From: Candidatus Cloacimonadota bacterium
Lineage (GTDB): Bacteria > Cloacimonadota > Cloacimonadia > Cloacimonadales > Cloacimonadaceae
Assembly: GCA_023228285.1 (NCBI GenBank)
Contig: JALOBM010000074.1
Location: forward strand, 1 to 9,690
DNA length: 9,690 bases
Direction of reading: 5' to 3'
The position numbers were made by a program, and so were the translations under genes. Positions 2,529 to 9,690 of the stretch are shown here, piece after piece. Each line of letters begins with the position of its first letter. Position 1 is the first letter of the stretch. The notes under the pieces were generated by a model that did no database searches, was not told the origin of the DNA, and saw nothing but the letters and a program-made list of their open reading frames with translations.

Positions 2529-2535
2529 AAAAATA

Positions 2536-3468
2536 ATGAGTAATGTCGCAAAAAAAATTACAGATCTGATCGGACACACTCCGCTTCTTGAGCTGACGAA
2601 CACGGAGAAAAACCTGAACCTGCAGGCAACTATTTTGGCCAAGCTTGAATATTTTAACCCAGCTGGAAGCGTTAAAGACAGGATTGCAAAAGCAATGATA
2701 GACGACGCTGAGAATAAGGGTATTCTAAAAGAGGGTTCGGTGATAATTGAACCCACCAGCGGGAACACCGGAATAGGTCTTGCATCTGTTGCCGCATCAC
2801 GTGGATACAGAATTATATTGACAATGCCTGACACCATGAGCGTAGAACGCAGAAACCTGCTTAAGGCATATGGGGCTGAACTCGTTTTAACCGAGGGCAG
2901 TAAGGGAATGAAGGGGGCAATAGAAAGAGCTGACGAACTTGCAGCCGAAACTCCCGGAAGTTTTGTGCCAAGGCAGTTTGACAACCCGGTCAACCCTGAG
3001 ATACATAAAAATACGACGGGAGTCGAGATATGGAAGGATACGGAAGGAAAGGTGGATGTTTTTGTTGCGGGGATAGGAACCGGGGGAACGATAACTGGAG
3101 TCGGTGAATATCTGAAAACAAAAAATCCTGATATTAAGATAATAGCAGTTGAGCCGTCGGCTTCGCCAGTTTTGTCGAAAGGAACTCCCGGTCCGCATAA
3201 GATCCAGGGAATAGGGGCTGGTTTTGTCCCTAAAATTCTCAATACATCTGTGTATGACGAGATCATTACGGTAGAAAATGAAGATGCGTTTTCTACCGGC
3301 AATTCAATAGGCAAGACTGAAGGAGTTCTTGTGGGGATCTCATCAGGAGCCGCGGTCTGGGCTGCTATACAGCTGGCCAAACGTTCTGAAAACAGGGGGA
3401 AAACCATAGTTGCGCTCTTGGCGGACACTGGTGAACGCTATTTGTCTACTCCCGAGTTCGCCGATTAA
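2536..3468 (+). CDS. cysK: Cysteine synthase A (O-acetylserine sulfhydrylase)
   Basis: This is a fold-type II PLP enzyme that makes L-cysteine from O-acetyl-L-serine and sulfide in the cytoplasm. The 310-residue product has the family's usual length and motifs: IGHTPLLEL (12-20), the PLP lysine K47 in NPAGSVKDR, the substrate loop TSGNTG (74-79), the phosphate-binding GTGGT (181-185) and SSGAA (269-273) with S270 near the pyridine nitrogen. The C-terminus ends in [14 protein letters not shown], typical of CysK and without the CBS-domain extension of cystathionine beta-synthase. It is the last gene of the metY operon, 13 nt after metY, with an intrinsic terminator about 40 nt downstream. A CysM-type or O-phosphoserine-using variant cannot be excluded, but the motifs and the metY partner favour CysK. 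Confidence 0.93.
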
Positions 3469-4040: not shown

Positions 4041-4784
4041 ATGGAAGAAAAGAAACATAAGAACTGTGCTGAGAAAAGATCGAAGCTGCTCTGGAAAATG
4101 ACAATAATACTGTTGCTATTGCTGGCAATAGGAGCATATTTTGTATCTCCTGCCTATAAGAAAATGATAGATGATATATTTGCAACTTTTGCTACAGGAG
4201 ACTTCACTATTATGCGAGAATTCGTAGCAAGGTATGGTAAGCAGGCAGCTGCGGTATCTTTTTTTCTGATGATCTTTCAATCAATCGCCGCTCCGCTTCC
4301 GGCATTTCTAATTACGTTTGCTAATGCCAGCCTATTTGGTTGGTGGCAAGGAGCGGTTCTTTCATGGTCAAGTGCAATGGCTGGAGCAGCGGTATGTTTT
4401 TATATTGCGCGCATAATGGGCCGGGATGTGGTGGAAAAAATTACCAGCAAACGTGGACTTAAGTCAGTTGATGTTTTTTTTGCTCGTCATGGGAAACAGA
4501 GCATCGTCATAGCACGCTTATTACCATTTATATCTTTTGATTTTGTTAGTTACGCCGCCGGATTGACTTCAATGGGTTTTGGGGGGTTTTTTATTGCAAC
4601 GGGAATTGGACAGATGCCGGCAACGATTATTTATTCTTATGTTGGTGGAATGCTTACGGGCGGCGCAAAATATGTAGTTATGGGACTCCTTCTTTTCTTC
4701 AGTTTATCGATATTAATTGTTATGATGCGACAGCTATACAACGAGTACCAAACAAAAAAGGTGACAAATGTCAGCTCAAAATAG
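4041..4784 (+). CDS. TVP38/TMEM64 (DedA/SNARE-associated) family membrane protein, YdjZ/YdjX type
   Basis: This is a 247-residue polytopic inner-membrane protein. A charged cytoplasmic N-terminus (1-19) precedes a first membrane helix (about 20-36). Further hydrophobic segments lie near 68-95, 97-123, 158-176, 180-205 and 211-230. The family core is visible as FGWWQGAVLSWSSAMAGAA (99-117) followed by YIAR..GRD (121-129), and as the second re-entrant motif RLLPFISFDFVSYAAGLTSM (159-178). Family members are thought to be transporter-like, and some have been linked to lipid scrambling or metal resistance; the substrate here is unknown. The ATG has an AGGAGG SD (4025-4030) 10 nt upstream. The gene overlaps the next gene by 17 nt, which suggests translational coupling. 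A second, divergent copy lies at 5613. Two such proteins next to YdjY recall E. coli ydjX and ydjZ. Confidence 0.88.
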   Translation: MEEKKHKNCAEKRSKLLWKMTIILLLLLAIGAYFVSPAYKKMIDDIFATFATGDFTIMREFVARYGKQAAAVSFFLMIFQSIAAPLPAFLITFANASLFGWWQGAVLSWSSAMAGAAVCFYIARIMGRDVVEKITSKRGLKSVDVFFARHGKQSIVIARLLPFISFDFVSYAAGLTSMGFGGFFIATGIGQMPATIIYSYVGGMLTGGAKYVVMGLLLFFSLSILIVMMRQLYNEYQTKKVTNVSSK

Positions 4785-5610
4785 AAAACTAGTAGGTTTT
4801 TGGGGTATACGTCTACATCAATTTTTGAGTTTTTCATCTTTTTTTCAGAAGGTTCATTCAGAAGGCGGTGAATGGGCTTTTTTCCCAGGATGCAGCATGA
4901 TTGGCTATGATCCGGAACTTGTGGAACTTACATATAGCTGGTTGTTGAGGTTAAATCCACAAATGGGAATTGTCAGCAGTTGTTGTGCTTATCCAACCTC
5001 AGGACTGAATGATATGCAAAAATTTAATGTTTATCAAACGCAGCTGGGAAACAAACTTAAGTCAGCCGGAATTCGGAAACTGGTAGTTTGCTGTCCGAAT
5101 TGCACTAAGTCCTTAGAAAATTTAGAGGATGTTGATGTTATTTCTATCTGGCAGTTTCTTGACGAACATCCATGTATTTTTAAGACAGATGAAGGGATAA
5201 CCTATGTTCTTCACGATCCATGCCCCACAAGAAATTATCCAGAAATTCAGGCAACGTTCAGACGTGTAATGGAACGCGGAGGAGTTACATGGCAAGAATA
5301 TAATTCTAACCGTCGGTGGGCAATCTGTTGTGGCAAGATAAAAATGCTGATGATGATTTATCCTGAAAAAGGCAAAGAACTGTTAATGAAGAGGCTGAGT
5401 GAAAGTCAAAACAGGAACATCCTCACATACTGCTTTTCCTGCGTGGATTCTTTCAGAAAAGCAGGTTGCAACTCTGTCCATGGACTGGATTTAATATTTA
5501 GGCGTCCTGATGAGATAAGGTCAGGAGCTATTTGTGATGTAATAAACATCTGGAAAAACAGATGGAAATTGTCAAGAAAATTATCAGGAAAGGATATACA
5601 TAAACATTAA
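4768..5610 (+). CDS. Double-CCG-domain (Fe-S)-binding protein, HdrB/HdrD-like
   Basis: The 280-residue protein has two cysteine-rich CCG domains like those of heterodisulfide reductase HdrB/HdrD, GlpC and LutA. Domain 1 has C42, C72-C73 and CCPNC (C109, C112). Domain 2 has C152, C187-C188 and CFSC (C222, C225). Both sets keep the C-X~30-CC-X~34-CxxC spacing that ligates a non-cubane [4Fe-4S] cluster in HdrB, so cluster binding and thiol/disulfide or electron-transfer chemistry are inferred. Two oddities are visible. Domain 1 reads CCAYPT instead of the usual CCGxP, and after the second CCG comes KIKMLM instead of the common glycine-rich run. No membrane helix or ferredoxin domain is visible, so a partner must deliver electrons. 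The ATG has AAAGGTGA just upstream and overlaps the previous gene by 17 nt; the next gene starts 2 nt after the stop. Confidence 0.82.
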   Translation: MSAQNRKLVGFWGIRLHQFLSFSSFFQKVHSEGGEWAFFPGCSMIGYDPELVELTYSWLLRLNPQMGIVSSCCAYPTSGLNDMQKFNVYQTQLGNKLKSAGIRKLVVCCPNCTKSLENLEDVDVISIWQFLDEHPCIFKTDEGITYVLHDPCPTRNYPEIQATFRRVMERGGVTWQEYNSNRRWAICCGKIKMLMMIYPEKGKELLMKRLSESQNRNILTYCFSCVDSFRKAGCNSVHGLDLIFRRPDEIRSGAICDVINIWKNRWKLSRKLSGKDIHKH

Positions 5611-5612
5611 AC

Positions 5613-6320
5613 ATGCCGCAACTTACGGAATGTATCAGATATGGTCTTAATATTTTTAAAAAATACGGCAAACCTGCTTCACTGGTATTGTTTTGTGTTC
5701 TTGTTTTCATATTAAGCCACAGGTACAGATTGGACAATCATGTCACAGATCCTGCTAATCTGGCCATTCTCAGGGCAATGATCGATGAGAATTATCTTAA
5801 AGCATCTCTTATTTATATTATTTGTATGAGCATATGCTGTGTAATTCTCTCGTTGCCCGGAGTTGCTTTTGCTGTAATCGGAGGTCTGTTATTTGGCCCG
5901 GTTATGGGCACCTTATTATGTCTTATAGCGGCTACAATAGGTGCTGTGCTTTCCTTTATTGCAGGAAGGTACTTTTTGAAAGACAGTGTAAGGCCTATGC
6001 TTGAAAAATATCCAGTTATCAAAAAACTTCTTTTTGATAATGCAAATAACAGCGCTTTATTTCTGCTTTTAGTTACGCGCCTGCTGCCGATATTTCCATA
6101 CAATATTCAGAATTTTGCCTATGGAATAACGGATATCGGCCTGATTCAATATGCAATTTACACATTTATATTTATGGCTCCTGGCGTAGCTATCTTTACT
6201 ATCGGAACGGCAGGTCTTTGGAGCAATGAAAACAGAATGTTTCTCTTTTGTTGGTCAGGTTCTCTTGCTTTGTTAGTAATAATTTCTGGAATATTACTAT
6301 ATCGCAGGTATGTAAAATAA
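5613..6320 (+). CDS. Second TVP38/TMEM64 family membrane protein, YdjX-like
   Basis: This is a 235-residue polytopic membrane protein, close to the length of E. coli YdjX/YdjZ. Hydrophobic segments lie near 21-35, 64-82, 84-118, 147-165, 176-200 and 209-230. The core motifs are GGLLFGPVMGTLLCLIAATI (90-109) leading to AGRYFLKD (117-124), and RLLPIFPYNIQNFAYGITDI (156-175). The latter is the proline-rich re-entrant signature of the family. It differs clearly from the protein at 4041 (NIQNFAYG against DFVSYAAG), so the two are paralogues rather than a recent duplication and may work as a pair. The ATG at 5613 is the only ATG near the start after an in-frame stop at 5601. Its SD is poor (AGGA about 23 nt away), and the 2-nt gap to the CCG gene suggests translation by coupling. 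The transported substrate is unknown. Confidence 0.87.
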   Translation: MPQLTECIRYGLNIFKKYGKPASLVLFCVLVFILSHRYRLDNHVTDPANLAILRAMIDENYLKASLIYIICMSICCVILSLPGVAFAVIGGLLFGPVMGTLLCLIAATIGAVLSFIAGRYFLKDSVRPMLEKYPVIKKLLFDNANNSALFLLLVTRLLPIFPYNIQNFAYGITDIGLIQYAIYTFIFMAPGVAIFTIGTAGLWSNENRMFLFCWSGSLALLVIISGILLYRRYVK

Positions 6321-6359
6321 TTCTTTAGCTTCAATAACTATGGAATCTTGGAGGCATCA

Positions 6360-6398
6360 GTGATTATCAAGGCACTTGAGCATATGCTTAAAACATAG
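6360..6398 (+). other. Possible 12-codon mini-ORF in the spacer before the AhpD-like gene
   Basis: In the 141-bp gap, GGAGG (6350-6354) lies 5 nt before a GTG that opens a 12-codon frame ending in TAG at 6396-6398. It encodes MIIKALEHMLKT. This could be a leader peptide, the relic of a lost gene or chance. The rest of the gap shows no clear promoter or terminator. Confidence 0.2.
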
Positions 6399-6463
6399 CA
6401 GCTATTCTGTTGCGTACTATACATAGAAGAAAATGTTTTTTATCCAATAAAATTTATTTAAAT

Positions 6464-6471
6464 GAAGGTGA
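6464..6471 (+). promoter_or_regulatory. SD suggesting a TTG start for the AhpD-like gene
   Basis: GAAGGTGA lies within the first codons after the ATG at 6462 and 5 nt before an in-frame TTG at 6477. The ATG itself is preceded only by A/T-rich sequence. This makes the TTG the more likely start. Confidence 0.5.
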
Positions 6472-6476
6472 ATGTA

Positions 6477-6821
6477 TTGGGTGATGCTTATTATGATCCT
6501 AATGATCTTGCAAAATTTTCAGAAATAGGAGAATTTGCTCCGGGTTTGTGGCAGAAGTTTATTGGCTACTATGCCAGTGTTTTTGAAGAAGGTGACCTGA
6601 CTGCCAGAGAAAAGGTTATTGTTGCTCTTGCAGTAGCGCACACTGTTCAATGTCCATACTGCATTGATGCATACACACAATCCTGTCTTGAGCATGGGGT
6701 GAATGCCGCTCAAATGACTGAAGCTATTCATGTGGCAGCTGCTATCCGGGGTGGAGCAACACTTATTCACGGAGTACAGATGAAAAATATTATTAATAAG
6801 CTGGAGATGAAAAATGAATAA
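6477..6821 (+). CDS. Carboxymuconolactone-decarboxylase/AhpD-like protein, arsenosugar-associated peroxidase-like type
   Basis: This small cytoplasmic protein has the AhpD/CMD fold. With the TTG start at 6477 it has 114 residues; an ATG at 6462 would add five. Numbered from that ATG, the redox motif is C64-P-Y-C67-IDAYT. It is preceded by E50 and VALAVAH (54-60), and followed by the helix MTEAIHVAAAIRGGATLIHG (85-104). In AhpD the proton-relay residue four positions after the second Cys is His, whereas here it is Tyr71. The protein therefore resembles the group annotated as arsenosugar biosynthesis-associated peroxidase-like protein, which sits beside ArsS-type radical-SAM genes, as it does here. 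A thiol-peroxidase or disulfide-exchange role is inferred. Its stop overlaps the arsS-like start by 8 nt, so the two are translationally coupled. No in-frame TGA was found, so this is a Cys form rather than a selenoprotein. Confidence 0.85.
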   Translation: MGDAYYDPNDLAKFSEIGEFAPGLWQKFIGYYASVFEEGDLTAREKVIVALAVAHTVQCPYCIDAYTQSCLEHGVNAAQMTEAIHVAAAIRGGATLIHGVQMKNIINKLEMKNE

Positions 6822-7794
6822 CCTTTATAGAGTTGAACAGCTGAATATAATTCCACATTTTATTGATTCAATCCCGGATATGAAATGGAACCACTCCATG
6901 AGTCAGATTGAAGTGCTCCAGGTGAATGTCGGACGTCTTTGTAATCTTAAGTGCAGGCATTGTCATCTTTCCTGTGGACCGGACAGAAAAGAGATAATGG
7001 GTCGGGAAGTAATGGAAAACTGTATCAGTGCAGTTAATAAGAGAGGGATTAAGTTACTTGATATTACTGGTGGAGCACCGGAGCTTAACCCCAATTTTCG
7101 ATGGTTTCTACTAGAATCATGCAATACAGGAGCCAGAGTGATTGTAAGGTCAAACATGGTGATCCTTGATGAACCTGGCTTTGAAGATATCCCGAAACTA
7201 TATGCCAATAACGGAATTGAGCTTATCTGTTCTCTCCCTTATTATTCCTCAAATGATAATGACAGACAGCGAGGTACAGGAATTTTTGATCGATCAGTAT
7301 CCATCCTACGCAATCTTAATAAACTTGGTTATGGAAAAGGAGGCGGACTCAAACTTAATCTGGTCTACAATCCCGGTGGTGCGTTTCTGCCTCCGTCTCA
7401 GGCAGCACTTGAAAATGATTACAGAGGGAGACTTAAACAGCAACATGGAATTGTTTTTGACAATCTCTACACCATAACCAACAACCCAACCGGACGTTTT
7501 TATGAATTCCTTCAGAATAGCGGAAATCTTGATGGATATATGAAACGTCTTTATAACAGTTTCAACCCAGCAACAGTTGAGCGAATAATGTGCCGCAGCC
7601 AAATCTCAGTTGGATGGGATGGAATGCTTTATGATTGCGATTTTAATCAGGCATTGGGTTGGGAAGTTCTCGGCATAAAGACTATCGGCGAATGGGCGAA
7701 TGCTCCTTCGGAGGAGCGACCCATAAGATTTGGTAATCACTGCTATGCCTGCACGGCGGGCAGTGGTTCCAGTTGCAGCGGTTCTAATGAATAA
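6814..7794 (+). CDS. arsS: Radical-SAM/Cys-rich protein, ArsS (arsenosugar biosynthesis) family
   Basis: This 326-residue cytoplasmic radical-SAM enzyme has the SAM cluster motif CNLKCRHC (C43, C47, C50) followed by HLSCGPDRKEIM (51-62). The SAM-binding motif is LLDITGGAPELNP (81-93), and family blocks include KLNLVYNPGGAFLPPSQAAL (180-199) and SVGWDGMLYDCDFNQ (265-279). A C-terminal Cys-rich part (C260, C275, C310, C313, C321; CYACTAGSGSSC) resembles a DUF3641/SPASM-like site for extra Fe-S clusters. ArsS is assigned to forming the 5'-deoxyadenosyl-arsenic bond in arsenosugar synthesis. The substrate here is uncertain because no ArsM methyltransferase is visible. The block SLPYY (140-144) has Tyr where I recall Cys in many homologues. 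The ATG has GGAG 7 nt upstream and overlaps the AhpD-like gene. No internal TGA is present, so this is a non-seleno form. Confidence 0.87.
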   Translation: MNNLYRVEQLNIIPHFIDSIPDMKWNHSMSQIEVLQVNVGRLCNLKCRHCHLSCGPDRKEIMGREVMENCISAVNKRGIKLLDITGGAPELNPNFRWFLLESCNTGARVIVRSNMVILDEPGFEDIPKLYANNGIELICSLPYYSSNDNDRQRGTGIFDRSVSILRNLNKLGYGKGGGLKLNLVYNPGGAFLPPSQAALENDYRGRLKQQHGIVFDNLYTITNNPTGRFYEFLQNSGNLDGYMKRLYNSFNPATVERIMCRSQISVGWDGMLYDCDFNQALGWEVLGIKTIGEWANAPSEERPIRFGNHCYACTAGSGSSCSGSNE

Positions 7795-7820
7795 AAACTT
7801 TTTTTTCAATAAAGTTTTTA
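7792..7820 (+). terminator. Weak A/T-rich stem-loop at the end of arsS
   Basis: TAAAAACTTT (7792-7801, including the arsS stop) pairs perfectly with AAAGTTTTTA (7811-7820) around a 9-nt loop, followed by an A/T-rich tract. Only one G-C pair is present, so termination would be partial at best. A TATAAT-like box (7824-7829) follows without a good -35. Confidence 0.35.
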
Positions 7821-7859
7821 TTATATAATATTTTTTTAACAAAAAAAGGAGGAATAAAT

Positions 7860-8528
7860 ATGAAGAAGTTATTGTTTGGTGTGGTATTGGCGGTAGCTCT
7901 GGCTGGAGGTTTTTCGCTTTTACAGAATACAGCTGAAGCCGGTCTTTTCAAAAAATCAGCGGAAGGGCTTCCTGTTGAGATTAACAAAGCGGCAAAAGAG
8001 ATAATTATGCCGGCAGAGGTAAACGGGAAGTATTTCACAGAGCCAACGAGGCATGGAGTGGTTTTTCTTACTGGCTCCAACGGAGAGAAAGCAGTGCTTC
8101 GCGGACTTTCGGATGAGAAACAATTTCACGACGCCCTTCTTGCTATAGGCGCGAAACCTGGAAACAATATAAAACTGAACGATATGAAGGCCGGTCCGAA
8201 TAATGGCAAAAGTGTCGAAGGATCCAAACTTGATGTTTTCGTAAAATGGGAAGGCTCAAAGGGGGAAATTCCATTTCAAAATATTATCAGGGCCACTGTT
8301 GAACGCCCGATGGATATTCGCTTCGGAGGAAATCTTGAAGCAGCCCAAAAAGCCAATACTGGCTGTGTCCTGTGCCTTGACAGCTGTGCAGTTGGGATAA
8401 CAAGCAATGCAGCCTATCCTACAGGAACGACACAGCACAAAGTATCAGAATTTTACGGCAGAAAAGATATCCTCCCTCCCGATGGGACCCGTGTTTCTGT
8501 AATATTCCGTTTGGCGAAACAACAATAA
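7860..8528 (+). CDS. ydjY: Exported YdjY-family protein with CxxCxxxC motif
   Basis: The 222-residue product starts with a clear signal peptide (KK, hydrophobic 4-21, cleavage probably after AEA at 27), so the mature protein is outside the cytoplasmic membrane. The body matches the YdjY family: AEVNGKYFTEPTRHGVVF (52-69), GSNGEKAVLRGL (72-83), the lid region LDVFVKWEG (124-132), DIRFGGNLE (152-160), and the signature NTGCVLCLDSCAVGITSNA (166-184) with C169, C172 and C176. The CxxCxxxC set could bind a metal or Fe-S cluster or act in redox chemistry; its function is not established. E. coli YdjY (about 225 aa) lies between the TVP38-type genes ydjX and ydjZ, matching the two such genes upstream here. 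The ATG has a strong AGGAGGA SD (7847-7853) 6 nt upstream. The next gene follows after 15 nt in the same frame. Confidence 0.87.
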   Translation: MKKLLFGVVLAVALAGGFSLLQNTAEAGLFKKSAEGLPVEINKAAKEIIMPAEVNGKYFTEPTRHGVVFLTGSNGEKAVLRGLSDEKQFHDALLAIGAKPGNNIKLNDMKAGPNNGKSVEGSKLDVFVKWEGSKGEIPFQNIIRATVERPMDIRFGGNLEAAQKANTGCVLCLDSCAVGITSNAAYPTGTTQHKVSEFYGRKDILPPDGTRVSVIFRLAKQQ

Positions 8529-8543
8529 TTATATAAATTTGCA

Positions 8544-8945
8544 ATGAGGATATTAAGCCTGCTTTACAACACCTTTCTGTGGGCTATAGCAGTAGCTATA
8601 GCCCTTTTTCAGTTTACATGGCTGGAAATGAGGGTCAACATCGGTTTGGTTTTATTTTTATTATGGGCGCTGCTATTTATGTGTTCTTTTGTCAAGGGCT
8701 GGAGATTCGGTCAGATCGGCACAACCATAAATTTGGTCGGTGTATTTGGATTCTGTTTTTTAATTCTGGGGTGTGAGCGTTTGTTTGCTGTTCCCGCTCT
8801 GATTATTAGGGAAGGATTAGGGTTAAATAGAATTCCTGTCGATAAGATTAATTTTGTTCTTACATGTATATTAATAATCGGTCTTTTCTCTGTCGTAATT
8901 TGTGATAAACATGCAGCAAAAAGGAGAATAAAAAATGGAACGTAG
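8544..8945 (+). CDS. Unknown small membrane protein (about 133 aa, four helices)
   Basis: I do not recognise a family. The 133-residue product has four hydrophobic segments (about 9-26, 32-50, 59-86 and 102-120) and a basic C-terminus (KHAAKRRIK). Cysteines lie at 47, 71, 77, 109 and 120. It starts 15 nt after the ydjY stop in the same frame, and its stop overlaps the DUF4418 gene by 11 nt, so it belongs to the same transcription unit and is probably a membrane partner of DUF4418. The ATG at 8544 has no SD. An in-frame ATG at 8628 (Met29) also has a poor one, but would remove the first helix. A terminator-like hairpin lies within codons 13-22. Initiation may depend on ribosomes finishing ydjY. 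Confidence 0.62.
   Translation: MRILSLLYNTFLWAIAVAIALFQFTWLEMRVNIGLVLFLLWALLFMCSFVKGWRFGQIGTTINLVGVFGFCFLILGCERLFAVPALIIREGLGLNRIPVDKINFVLTCILIIGLFSVVICDKHAAKRRIKNGT
8581..8609 (+). terminator. Perfect hairpin plus T5 inside the start of the membrane-protein gene
   Basis: GGGCTATAGC (8581-8590) and GCTATAGCCC (8595-8604) form a perfect 10-bp stem with loop AGTA, immediately followed by TTTTT (8605-8609). This is the layout of an intrinsic terminator. It lies 52 nt past the ydjY stop, but within codons 13-22 of the next gene. It may be an attenuator, or a chance product of the repeated AIA-V-AIA codons, because GCTATAGC is its own complement. Confidence 0.55.
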
Positions 8946-9324
8946 AATATCAGGTTTATTCAATATTGCTGTGGGTATCTTGCTGGTTTTTGGGCCCTGG
9001 CTTCTGTTCAAGACGTGTAGTACTGAAGTAAAAATTATGAAATGCTATTGGAGCTCTAAGTCAGAACTGGCGATAGGTATTTTATTCGTTATACTTGGAA
9101 TTCTCATTTTAACAATGAAGGATAACGATGATAATCGCCGTATGTCCATCTTAAGCATAGCAATGAGCATTATTGCTATATTAATCCCTGCATTCATAAT
9201 TGGTGGCTGTATAAAACCTGATATGGCGTGCAGAGCCGTGACATTCCCGACTATTTATACTATATCCACAGTTAATATCATCGCACAGTCCATAATAATA
9301 CTCTCTATCAGGAAAAAACATTAA
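8935..9324 (+). CDS. DUF4418 family membrane protein
   Basis: This is a 129-residue integral membrane protein with four helices (about 7-25, 44-61, 70-91 and 103-125). It matches the DUF4418 pattern: KCYWSSKSELAIG (36-48), with Cys37 before an aromatic residue and a conserved Glu44, and MACRAVTFPTIY (97-108) with Cys99. Further cysteines lie at 28 and 92. The two Cys-containing blocks flank membrane helices and could form a metal or disulfide site at the outer face, but no function is established. The ATG has AAGGAG (8921-8926) 8 nt upstream and overlaps the previous gene by 11 nt. It is followed after 80 nt by an ABC permease gene, an arrangement that I recall for other DUF4418 genes and that suggests a role in that transporter. 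Confidence 0.8.
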   Translation: MERRISGLFNIAVGILLVFGPWLLFKTCSTEVKIMKCYWSSKSELAIGILFVILGILILTMKDNDDNRRMSILSIAMSIIAILIPAFIIGGCIKPDMACRAVTFPTIYTISTVNIIAQSIIILSIRKKH

Positions 9325-9404
9325 CAGAATGTTATTTTTATAACTGACATACATATACGCTCTGCATTGGGCTAAAGCGAAGCAACACAAGGGAGATTTT
9401 TTGT

Positions 9405-9690
9405 GTGAATAGAAACAAAAAGCGCTTATTGACTATATTTGATATAGCAGTTCGAAATCTCGAGCTCAGAAAAATTAGGACTGGATTTATGATCTTTTTT
9501 GTGTGTGTTTTGGCACTTTCTCTTTTCGTAATTTCAGTTATTGTTAATAGTATGGAGCAGAGATTTAATAATACAATTGACCGAATGGGTGCCGATATCA
9601 TAATCGTTCCGTCGTCAGCTGCGGCAGATGTTGTTAATTCAATCTTTCTGGGCGAATCATTCAGCCTATATTTTGACAAAAAAATGTCTG
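9405..9690 (+). CDS. MacB/FtsX-type ABC transporter permease (N-terminus; truncated by window end)
   Basis: The frame opens with GTG at 9405, with GGGAGA (9391-9396) 8 nt upstream, and runs open to the window end (95 codons). The start IFDIAVRNLELRKIRTGF (11-28) is the typical cytoplasmic coupling helix before the first membrane helix of MacB/FtsX-family permeases (about 28-48). A periplasmic segment containing NRMGADIIIVPS-type sequence (here DRMGADIIIVPSSAA, 64-78) follows, as in the MacB periplasmic domain. Such permeases work with a cytoplasmic ATPase, expected just downstream, on substrates on the outer side of the membrane. Similar permeases occur in the Campylobacter/E. coli iron-associated clusters with P19/FetP and Fe-S proteins. 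Whether this one belongs to such a system is inference. Confidence 0.82.
   Translation, partial: MNRNKKRLLTIFDIAVRNLELRKIRTGFMIFFVCVLALSLFVISVIVNSMEQRFNNTIDRMGADIIIVPSSAAADVVNSIFLGESFSLYFDKKMS

Follow-up and report, generated by a model that had tools for sequence, protein, structure and literature searches.

What does a gene for an ArsS-type radical S-adenosylmethionine (SAM) enzyme do among homologues of the Escherichia coli ydjX, ydjY and ydjZ genes? The question is raised by a 9,690-nucleotide (nt) stretch of DNA from a Candidatus Cloacimonadota bacterium, likely an anaerobe (contig JALOBM010000074.1; the whole stretch is referred to here as the window). Seven co-directed genes on its plus strand (positions 4041–8945) encode proteins termed TVPa, CCG, TVPb, CMD, ArsS, YdjY and U133. 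This gene set is real, conserved and functionally linked. Our preferred explanation, to which we give a probability of about one half, is that the seven genes are a conserved ArsS set, predicted to place the 5′-deoxyadenosyl group of SAM on a metalloid (most likely methylated arsenic made or supplied elsewhere), in which a YdjXYZ-type envelope module would move the compound across the membrane. The set is best read as an arsenosugar pathway variant to which this envelope module has been joined, and it does not represent a new kind of system. Directly observed are its gene content and conserved neighbourhood, the homology to YdjX, YdjY and YdjZ, the co-occurrence of YdjY with ArsS across genomes and the kept ArsS cysteines.

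Members and layout of the gene set

The radical SAM enzyme ArsS (6814–7794; 326 amino acids [aa]) scores 415.7 bits with family TIGR04167 (cut-off 300) and contains the Pfam domains Radical_SAM and DUF3641 (174.3 bits). Eight of its cysteines (C43, C47, C50, C260, C275, C310, C313 and C321), which comprise the radical SAM motif CxxxCxxC and C-terminal residues, are invariant across 23 aligned homologues including the window protein. The same eight are near-invariant in a larger alignment of cassette and ArsM-linked proteins (ArsM is the methyltransferase thought to feed ArsS), where 58 near-invariant columns, cysteines included, are common to 23 cassette rows (L165 and L166 excluded) and 25 ArsM-linked rows, and 7 columns are group-specific. 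The ArsS genes of loci L003 and L074 contain an in-frame TGA at the position of C321, which probably encodes selenocysteine.

ArsS is preceded by CMD (6462–6821; 119 aa), an AhpD-like protein with a CxxC motif (cysteines 64, 67 and 75) and a score of 191.5 bits (cut-off 120) with TIGR04169, the family of arsenosugar-associated peroxidase-like proteins. TVPa (4041–4784; 247 aa) and TVPb (5613–6320; 235 aa) are TVP38/VTT membrane proteins of the YdjZ and YdjX type, respectively (VTT domain, 87.2 and 68.9 bits; cut-off 33.9). Between them lies the gene for CCG (4768–5610; 280 aa), an HdrB-like protein with cysteine pairs at residues 72–73, 108–109 and 187–188, which matches the Pfam CCG domain in two stretches (37.4 bits; cut-off 20.6). 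YdjY (7860–8528; 222 aa; NF040466, 149.4 bits, cut-off 50) is predicted to be extracytoplasmic. A hydrophobic stretch lies at its N-terminus, and its three cysteines, C169, C172 and C176, are the only ones in the protein; they form the motif CxxCLDSC and are invariant in 32 aligned sequences.

The last gene of the set encodes U133 (8544–8945; 133 aa), a small membrane protein with about four hydrophobic stretches and a companion of YdjY. No Pfam or NCBIfam match to it was obtained at E 0.01. Motifs such as WLEMRVN are common to U133 and the open reading frame (ORF) found after YdjY in Synergistota and in a number of Clostridia; in locus L188, U133 is apparently fused to a YdjZ-type protein. 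A terminator-like hairpin of ten pairs followed by a T run (8581–8604) is located inside the start of the U133 gene.

Sequence searches of solved structures matched the ArsS profile to other radical SAM enzymes only, and CMD to CMD/AhpD entries only. The best hit of YdjY had E = 0.16, and CCG, TVPa and E. coli YnjB gave no match at the limits used.

The genes are tightly packed: TVPa/CCG and CMD/ArsS overlap by 17 and 8 nt, respectively, and the CCG–TVPb gap is 2 nt long; the remaining gaps are 141 nt (TVPb–CMD), 65 nt (ArsS–YdjY) and 15 nt (YdjY–U133). ORF positions, both overlaps and the 2-nt gap agree exactly with a preliminary description of the locus, and its family assignments (two TVP38 proteins, CCG, CMD, ArsS and YdjY) are upheld by profile scores above the cut-offs. 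All six genes that it named belong to the set. It omitted U133, although this gene lies directly 3′ of ydjY in the relatives too.

Conserved neighbourhood and co-occurrence of YdjY with ArsS

An ArsS alignment was scanned over contigs of one genome per species, which confirmed at least 590 places; the best 80 of these were kept, a selection biased towards relatives of the window. Since the gene lists for the loci drop overlapping ORFs, some genes (e.g. U133 of G156) are missing from them. The nearest sets are those of genomes G157 and G156 (loci L147 and L148; short loci L115 and L121), and the window ArsS groups with the ArsS of these genomes in a quick tree of 110 ArsS proteins (Shimodaira–Hasegawa-like approximate likelihood ratio test 99). 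L147 and L148 show the order YdjZ-type TVP38, CCG, YdjX-type TVP38, CMD, ArsS, YdjY, U133, followed by members of the arsenosugar glycosyltransferase families TIGR04282 and TIGR04283. Six L148 proteins are 53–73% identical to their window counterparts (TVPa 73%, CCG 53%, TVPb 56%, CMD 73%, ArsS 65%), and U133 is 47% identical to that of L147.

In Synergistota, ArsS scores over the cut-off in 27 of 185 genomes. A different order is found at nine of the 27 loci (transglutaminase-like protein, YdjZ type, YdjX type, YdjY, U133, CCG, CMD, ArsS, TIGR04283, TIGR04282), some of which end at contig ends. Set proteins are also fused in Lachnospiraceae: TVPb to TIGR04282, and YdjY to an ATP-binding cassette (ABC) substrate-binding domain, in L003; TIGR04282 to TIGR04283 in L002.

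Three modules can be told apart. In some Clostridia (L174–L176), the CMD–ArsS core is unaccompanied by the remaining reference genes. The TIGR04282/TIGR04283 module is sometimes accompanied by an APH/choline-kinase-like kinase, adjoining in L191 and fused to a TIGR04282-type protein in L178. The membrane and redox module, composed of YdjX, YdjY, YdjZ, U133 and CCG, also occurs without a neighbouring ArsS, as in L190 (YdjY, YdjZ type, YdjX type and CCG); a TVP38–YdjY module without ArsS beside it is present in E. coli, Acetoanaerobium, G325 and G406.

Evidence for a functional link came from genome-wide counts. YdjY was detected in 17 of the 185 Synergistota genomes, and all 17 are among the 27 with ArsS (Fisher test, p = 1.8e-17; this and all other co-occurrence p values ignore kinship). 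In 15 of the 17, YdjY is located on the ArsS contig. TIGR04282 behaves similarly, being present in 25/27 ArsS-positive and 9/158 ArsS-negative genomes (p = 2.9e-21). No such link was seen for a control family from the window, DUF4418 (7/27 versus 28/158). A sample of 341 Clostridia genomes, centred on G002, which carries both genes side by side, contained seven with ArsS, seven with YdjY and five with both (p = 1.2e-8); after removal of G002, four genomes have both, among six with YdjY and six with ArsS (p = 4.1e-7). In these four (G401, G406, G480 and G500) the two genes are on different contigs or 68 kb apart.

The counts in Synergistota and Clostridia indicate that the grouping is not due to chance. 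ArsS and YdjY share genomes even where their genes are distant from one another, and for this reason a joint role in making and moving a metalloid-carrying sugar is likely. The claim of a system made in the preliminary description, for which a genome-wide co-occurrence check had been set beforehand, therefore holds for YdjY and ArsS. A search of openly licensed literature retrieved no paper tying YdjXYZ to ArsS.

Several other genes were noted near the set or its relatives. Upstream of it in the window, by about 570 nt, are genes for O-acetylhomoserine sulfhydrylase (1242–2522) and cysteine synthase CysK (2533–3468), which show no sign of set membership. A partial ORF on the minus strand (1–882) looks like a radical SAM protein, with a CLYCGIR motif, and was judged HydE-like by eye alone. 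Downstream, a DUF4418 gene (8935–9324) overlaps U133 by 11 nt and occupies the place of the glycosyltransferases in the relatives; it was considered as a set member and rejected, as tblastn found none in the other loci of 119 and genome-wide enrichment is absent. The following ORF, cut by the window end (to 9689), reads like the start of an ABC permease; its 95-residue piece has no Pfam match. Locus L001 (Lachnospiraceae) carries near ArsS a 1638-aa ORF (12246–17162) with five rhodanese stretches and Big_2 and LRR_5 repeats. In L154, a DUF5714 protein (8914–9612) with weak likeness to the metal-binding selenoprotein MbdU lies between CCG and CMD.

Predicted pathway and nature of the substrate

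In arsenosugar synthesis ArsS attaches a 5′-deoxyadenosyl group, as stated in the passage of PMC12159101 that cites Cheng et al. 2021. Judging from the protein families, CCG and the CxxC-containing CMD would keep a metalloid trivalent or reduced, and thiol-bound, in the cytosol, and ArsS would form a carbon–metalloid bond to the 5′-deoxyadenosyl group; with DMAs(III) and SAM, the product would be 5′-deoxyadenosyl dimethylarsine. The CofC-like TIGR04282 and GT2-like TIGR04283 enzymes, together with the kinase of the relatives, may then activate and transfer the resulting sugar, possibly onto a lipid; transfer onto a lipid is conceivable because carrier lipids and phospholipids are moved by relatives of DedA (PMC10127716). 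Carrying the substrate or a lipid-linked product over the membrane would fall to the TVP38 pair and U133, and outside the membrane the three cysteines of YdjY could hold a trivalent metalloid or an iron–sulfur cluster.

Arsenic is the most likely element, and we weigh it higher than selenium. It is favoured by ArsM elsewhere in G156 and G157, by the 58 shared ArsS columns and by the TVP38 pair in the ArsM–ArsS locus of a Pseudanabaena plasmid, annotated as TVP38, mercuric reductase (merA), ArsM, TVP38 and ArsS, in which both TVP38 proteins are closest to YdjX. In G156 and G157, the nearest relatives with the same order, ArsM lies on another contig; it also scores over the cut-off elsewhere in the genomes of G003, G006 and G500. 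Six further Clostridia with ArsS gave an ArsM-like match in four cases and none in two (G385 and G406). In Muricomes intestini DSM 29489, which carries the cassette of L002, the best match to the ArsM model scores 57 bits (cut-off 263). The ArsM matches in G003, G071, G156, G157 and G500 run across an in-frame TGA, which may encode selenocysteine.

A number of observations weigh against the arsenic-based explanation. The window contains no ArsM, according to a family scan of ten window proteins and a tblastn search of the whole window with one arsenosugar ArsM, and the absence reported in the preliminary description is thus borne out; the ArsM-beside-ArsS arrangement of arsenosugar loci is not found here. 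TIGR04282 and TIGR04283, which directly follow the set in L147 and L148, are likewise missing from the window. Of the 110 ArsS loci, 25 lie near an arsenosugar ArsM gene and another 25 near YdjY or YdjZ, with no overlap between the two groups. No arsB or arsC and only five arsR were found in 119 loci (four arsR in ArsM-linked Nitrospira loci and one in L003). In Synergistota, ArsM (NF008823, E 1e-20 or better) does not track ArsS, occurring in 7/27 ArsS-positive and 17/51 ArsS-negative genomes (p = 0.61; the 51 controls were hand-picked from 158 and are mostly larger genomes); SelD was detected in 25/27 and 36/51, respectively (p = 0.041). YdjY is missing from 10 of the 27 ArsS-positive genomes, and three loci with YdjY (L158, L159 and L162), all among the nine with the different gene order, yielded no CMD. 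Furthermore, YdjXYZ is present in E. coli, which has no ArsS; the module must be able to work independently of ArsS in some organisms, and the disregard of kinship applies to every co-occurrence p value.

The preliminary description had taken the missing arsM as a hint of a substrate other than arsenic. This argument is weakened, since the window cannot show the rest of the genome and the ArsM of the nearest relatives is on another contig. What stands on its side is the lack of a clear ArsM in 20 of the 27 Synergistota with ArsS; gaps in the sequence do not account for this, because SelD was found in 25 of the same 27. In many Synergistota, ArsS is thus present while its presumed supplier, the methyltransferase ArsM, goes undetected.

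It is rather unlikely, in our estimate, that the substrate is selenium, tellurium or sulfur, with ArsS adenosylating a reduced chalcogen and YdjXYZ taking up or extruding an oxyanion or organic product. The 20 genomes lacking ArsM and the SelD counts point in this direction, as do the presence of SelD in both Lachnospiraceae tested (G001 and G002), the position of selD, which directly precedes CMD–ArsS in L009 and lies some 6 kb away from ArsS in L158, and YnjE-type rhodaneses in some loci; in Cupriavidus metallidurans, a DedA protein has also been connected with selenite (Ledgham 2005, in the passages of PMC8679861 and PMC10127716 that cite it). However, SelD occurs widely in Synergistota, its association with ArsS is weak and takes no account of kinship, and ArsM-linked ArsS proteins have almost the same conserved columns. 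The probable selenocysteine in some ArsS proteins (L003 and L074) would alone explain the SelD link.

Plain arsenosugar synthesis, with ArsM and the glycosyltransferases encoded elsewhere in the genome and TVP38, YdjY and CCG acting as lineage-specific helpers without new chemistry, also appears improbable. The scores of ArsS and CMD above the arsenosugar-family cut-offs are consistent with it, and so are the seven ArsM-positive genomes among the 27, which include the two nearest relatives, and the ArsM-like matches in four of six further Clostridia. Against these stand the 20 Synergistota genomes without clear ArsM, and the YdjY–ArsS linkage is much too strong for a casual helper. This linkage also bears on the suggestion, which we consider very improbable, that TVP38 and YdjY are general envelope proteins encoded near ArsS with no shared task. 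Relatives of DedA/TVP38 are described as carrier-lipid flippases or phospholipid scramblases (in the relevant passage of PMC10127716), gene order varies, and the modules are separate in Clostridia. Nevertheless, unlinked YdjY and ArsS still occur together in four Clostridia genomes, whose ArsS proteins fall at three places in the tree (L174 and L175 together, L178 apart, and L177 on a long branch of unsure place), and set proteins are fused in relatives (TVPb–TIGR04282 in L003).

Comparison with known systems

CCG resembles HdrB and NF045663 (pyridine nucleotide-disulfide oxidoreductase/dicluster-binding protein) in the double CCG part. It differs from NF045663 in lacking the flavoprotein half; the match covers only the C-terminal part of the profile (414–663 of 759) and its score of 154.5 bits is far under the cut-off of 530. 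Two ArsM-positive Synergistota (L143 and L144) encode a full-length NF045663 protein (544 bits) beside ArsS on the opposite strand.

With arsenosugar loci that contain ArsM and ArsS, the set shares ArsS (TIGR04167) and its CMD partner (TIGR04169), and in the relatives also TIGR04282 and TIGR04283. It differs from them in having no ArsM beside it and in the addition of CCG, YdjY, U133 and a YdjZ-type TVP38; the Pseudanabaena arsenosugar locus also holds a TVP38 pair, but of the YdjX-like kind.

Clusters of Acetoanaerobium noterae (L198) and G325 (L191) share CCG, YdjY and TVP38 proteins of both the YdjZ and YdjX type, and that of G325 additionally U133, TIGR04282 and TIGR04283. Unlike the window, they contain a YnjB-C-C-D ABC transporter, and no ArsS was found in G325 at E 1e-50 or in the single A. 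noterae record searched at 1e-40. The possibility of a make-or-import swap, with YnjBCD replacing ArsS, was rejected: of 29 genomes tried, five have YnjB, and ArsS is also present in three of the five (G385, G406 and G500).

A further known system that resembles the set is E. coli K-12 ydjXYZ-ynjABCD-ynjE. Identity between TVPa and YdjZ amounts to 53% over 230 aa, that between YdjY and its E. coli namesake to 38% over 184 aa and that between TVPb and YdjX to 35% over 216 aa; the presence of all three homologues together is typical of a ydjXYZ-ynjABCD type operon, and YnjE-type rhodaneses are found in some related loci. The resemblance to ydjXYZ-ynjA proposed in the preliminary description is therefore confirmed in its ydjXYZ part. 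The ynjA part is unsupported, since CMD is barely alike to YnjA (23% over 52 aa, E = 0.002); YnjA matches NF053654 and CMD matches TIGR04169. Queries with YnjB and YnjC found nothing in the window, which ends at 9690. Conversely, no E. coli protein reaches the ArsS cut-off, and the E. coli operon is devoid of CCG, U133 and glycosyltransferase genes. The regulon table of FNR in PMC3688515 lists ydjXYZ-ynjABCD as one operon, which looks like a form of the system without CCG, ArsS and glycosyltransferases.

A wider proposal, which we regard as doubtful, would unite the E. coli operon, the clostridial CCG–YnjBCD–YdjXYZ clusters and the ArsS cassette in a single, widespread envelope system whose cargo is a sugar carrying a metalloid or chalcogen, with ArsS using a substrate other than methylated arsenic in lineages lacking ArsM. 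The main value of the ArsS set lies in its bridge to ydjXYZ-ynjABCD: through co-occurrence that is independent of gene order, an E. coli operon of unknown function is tied to a defined enzyme pathway and acquires a testable link to metalloid chemistry.

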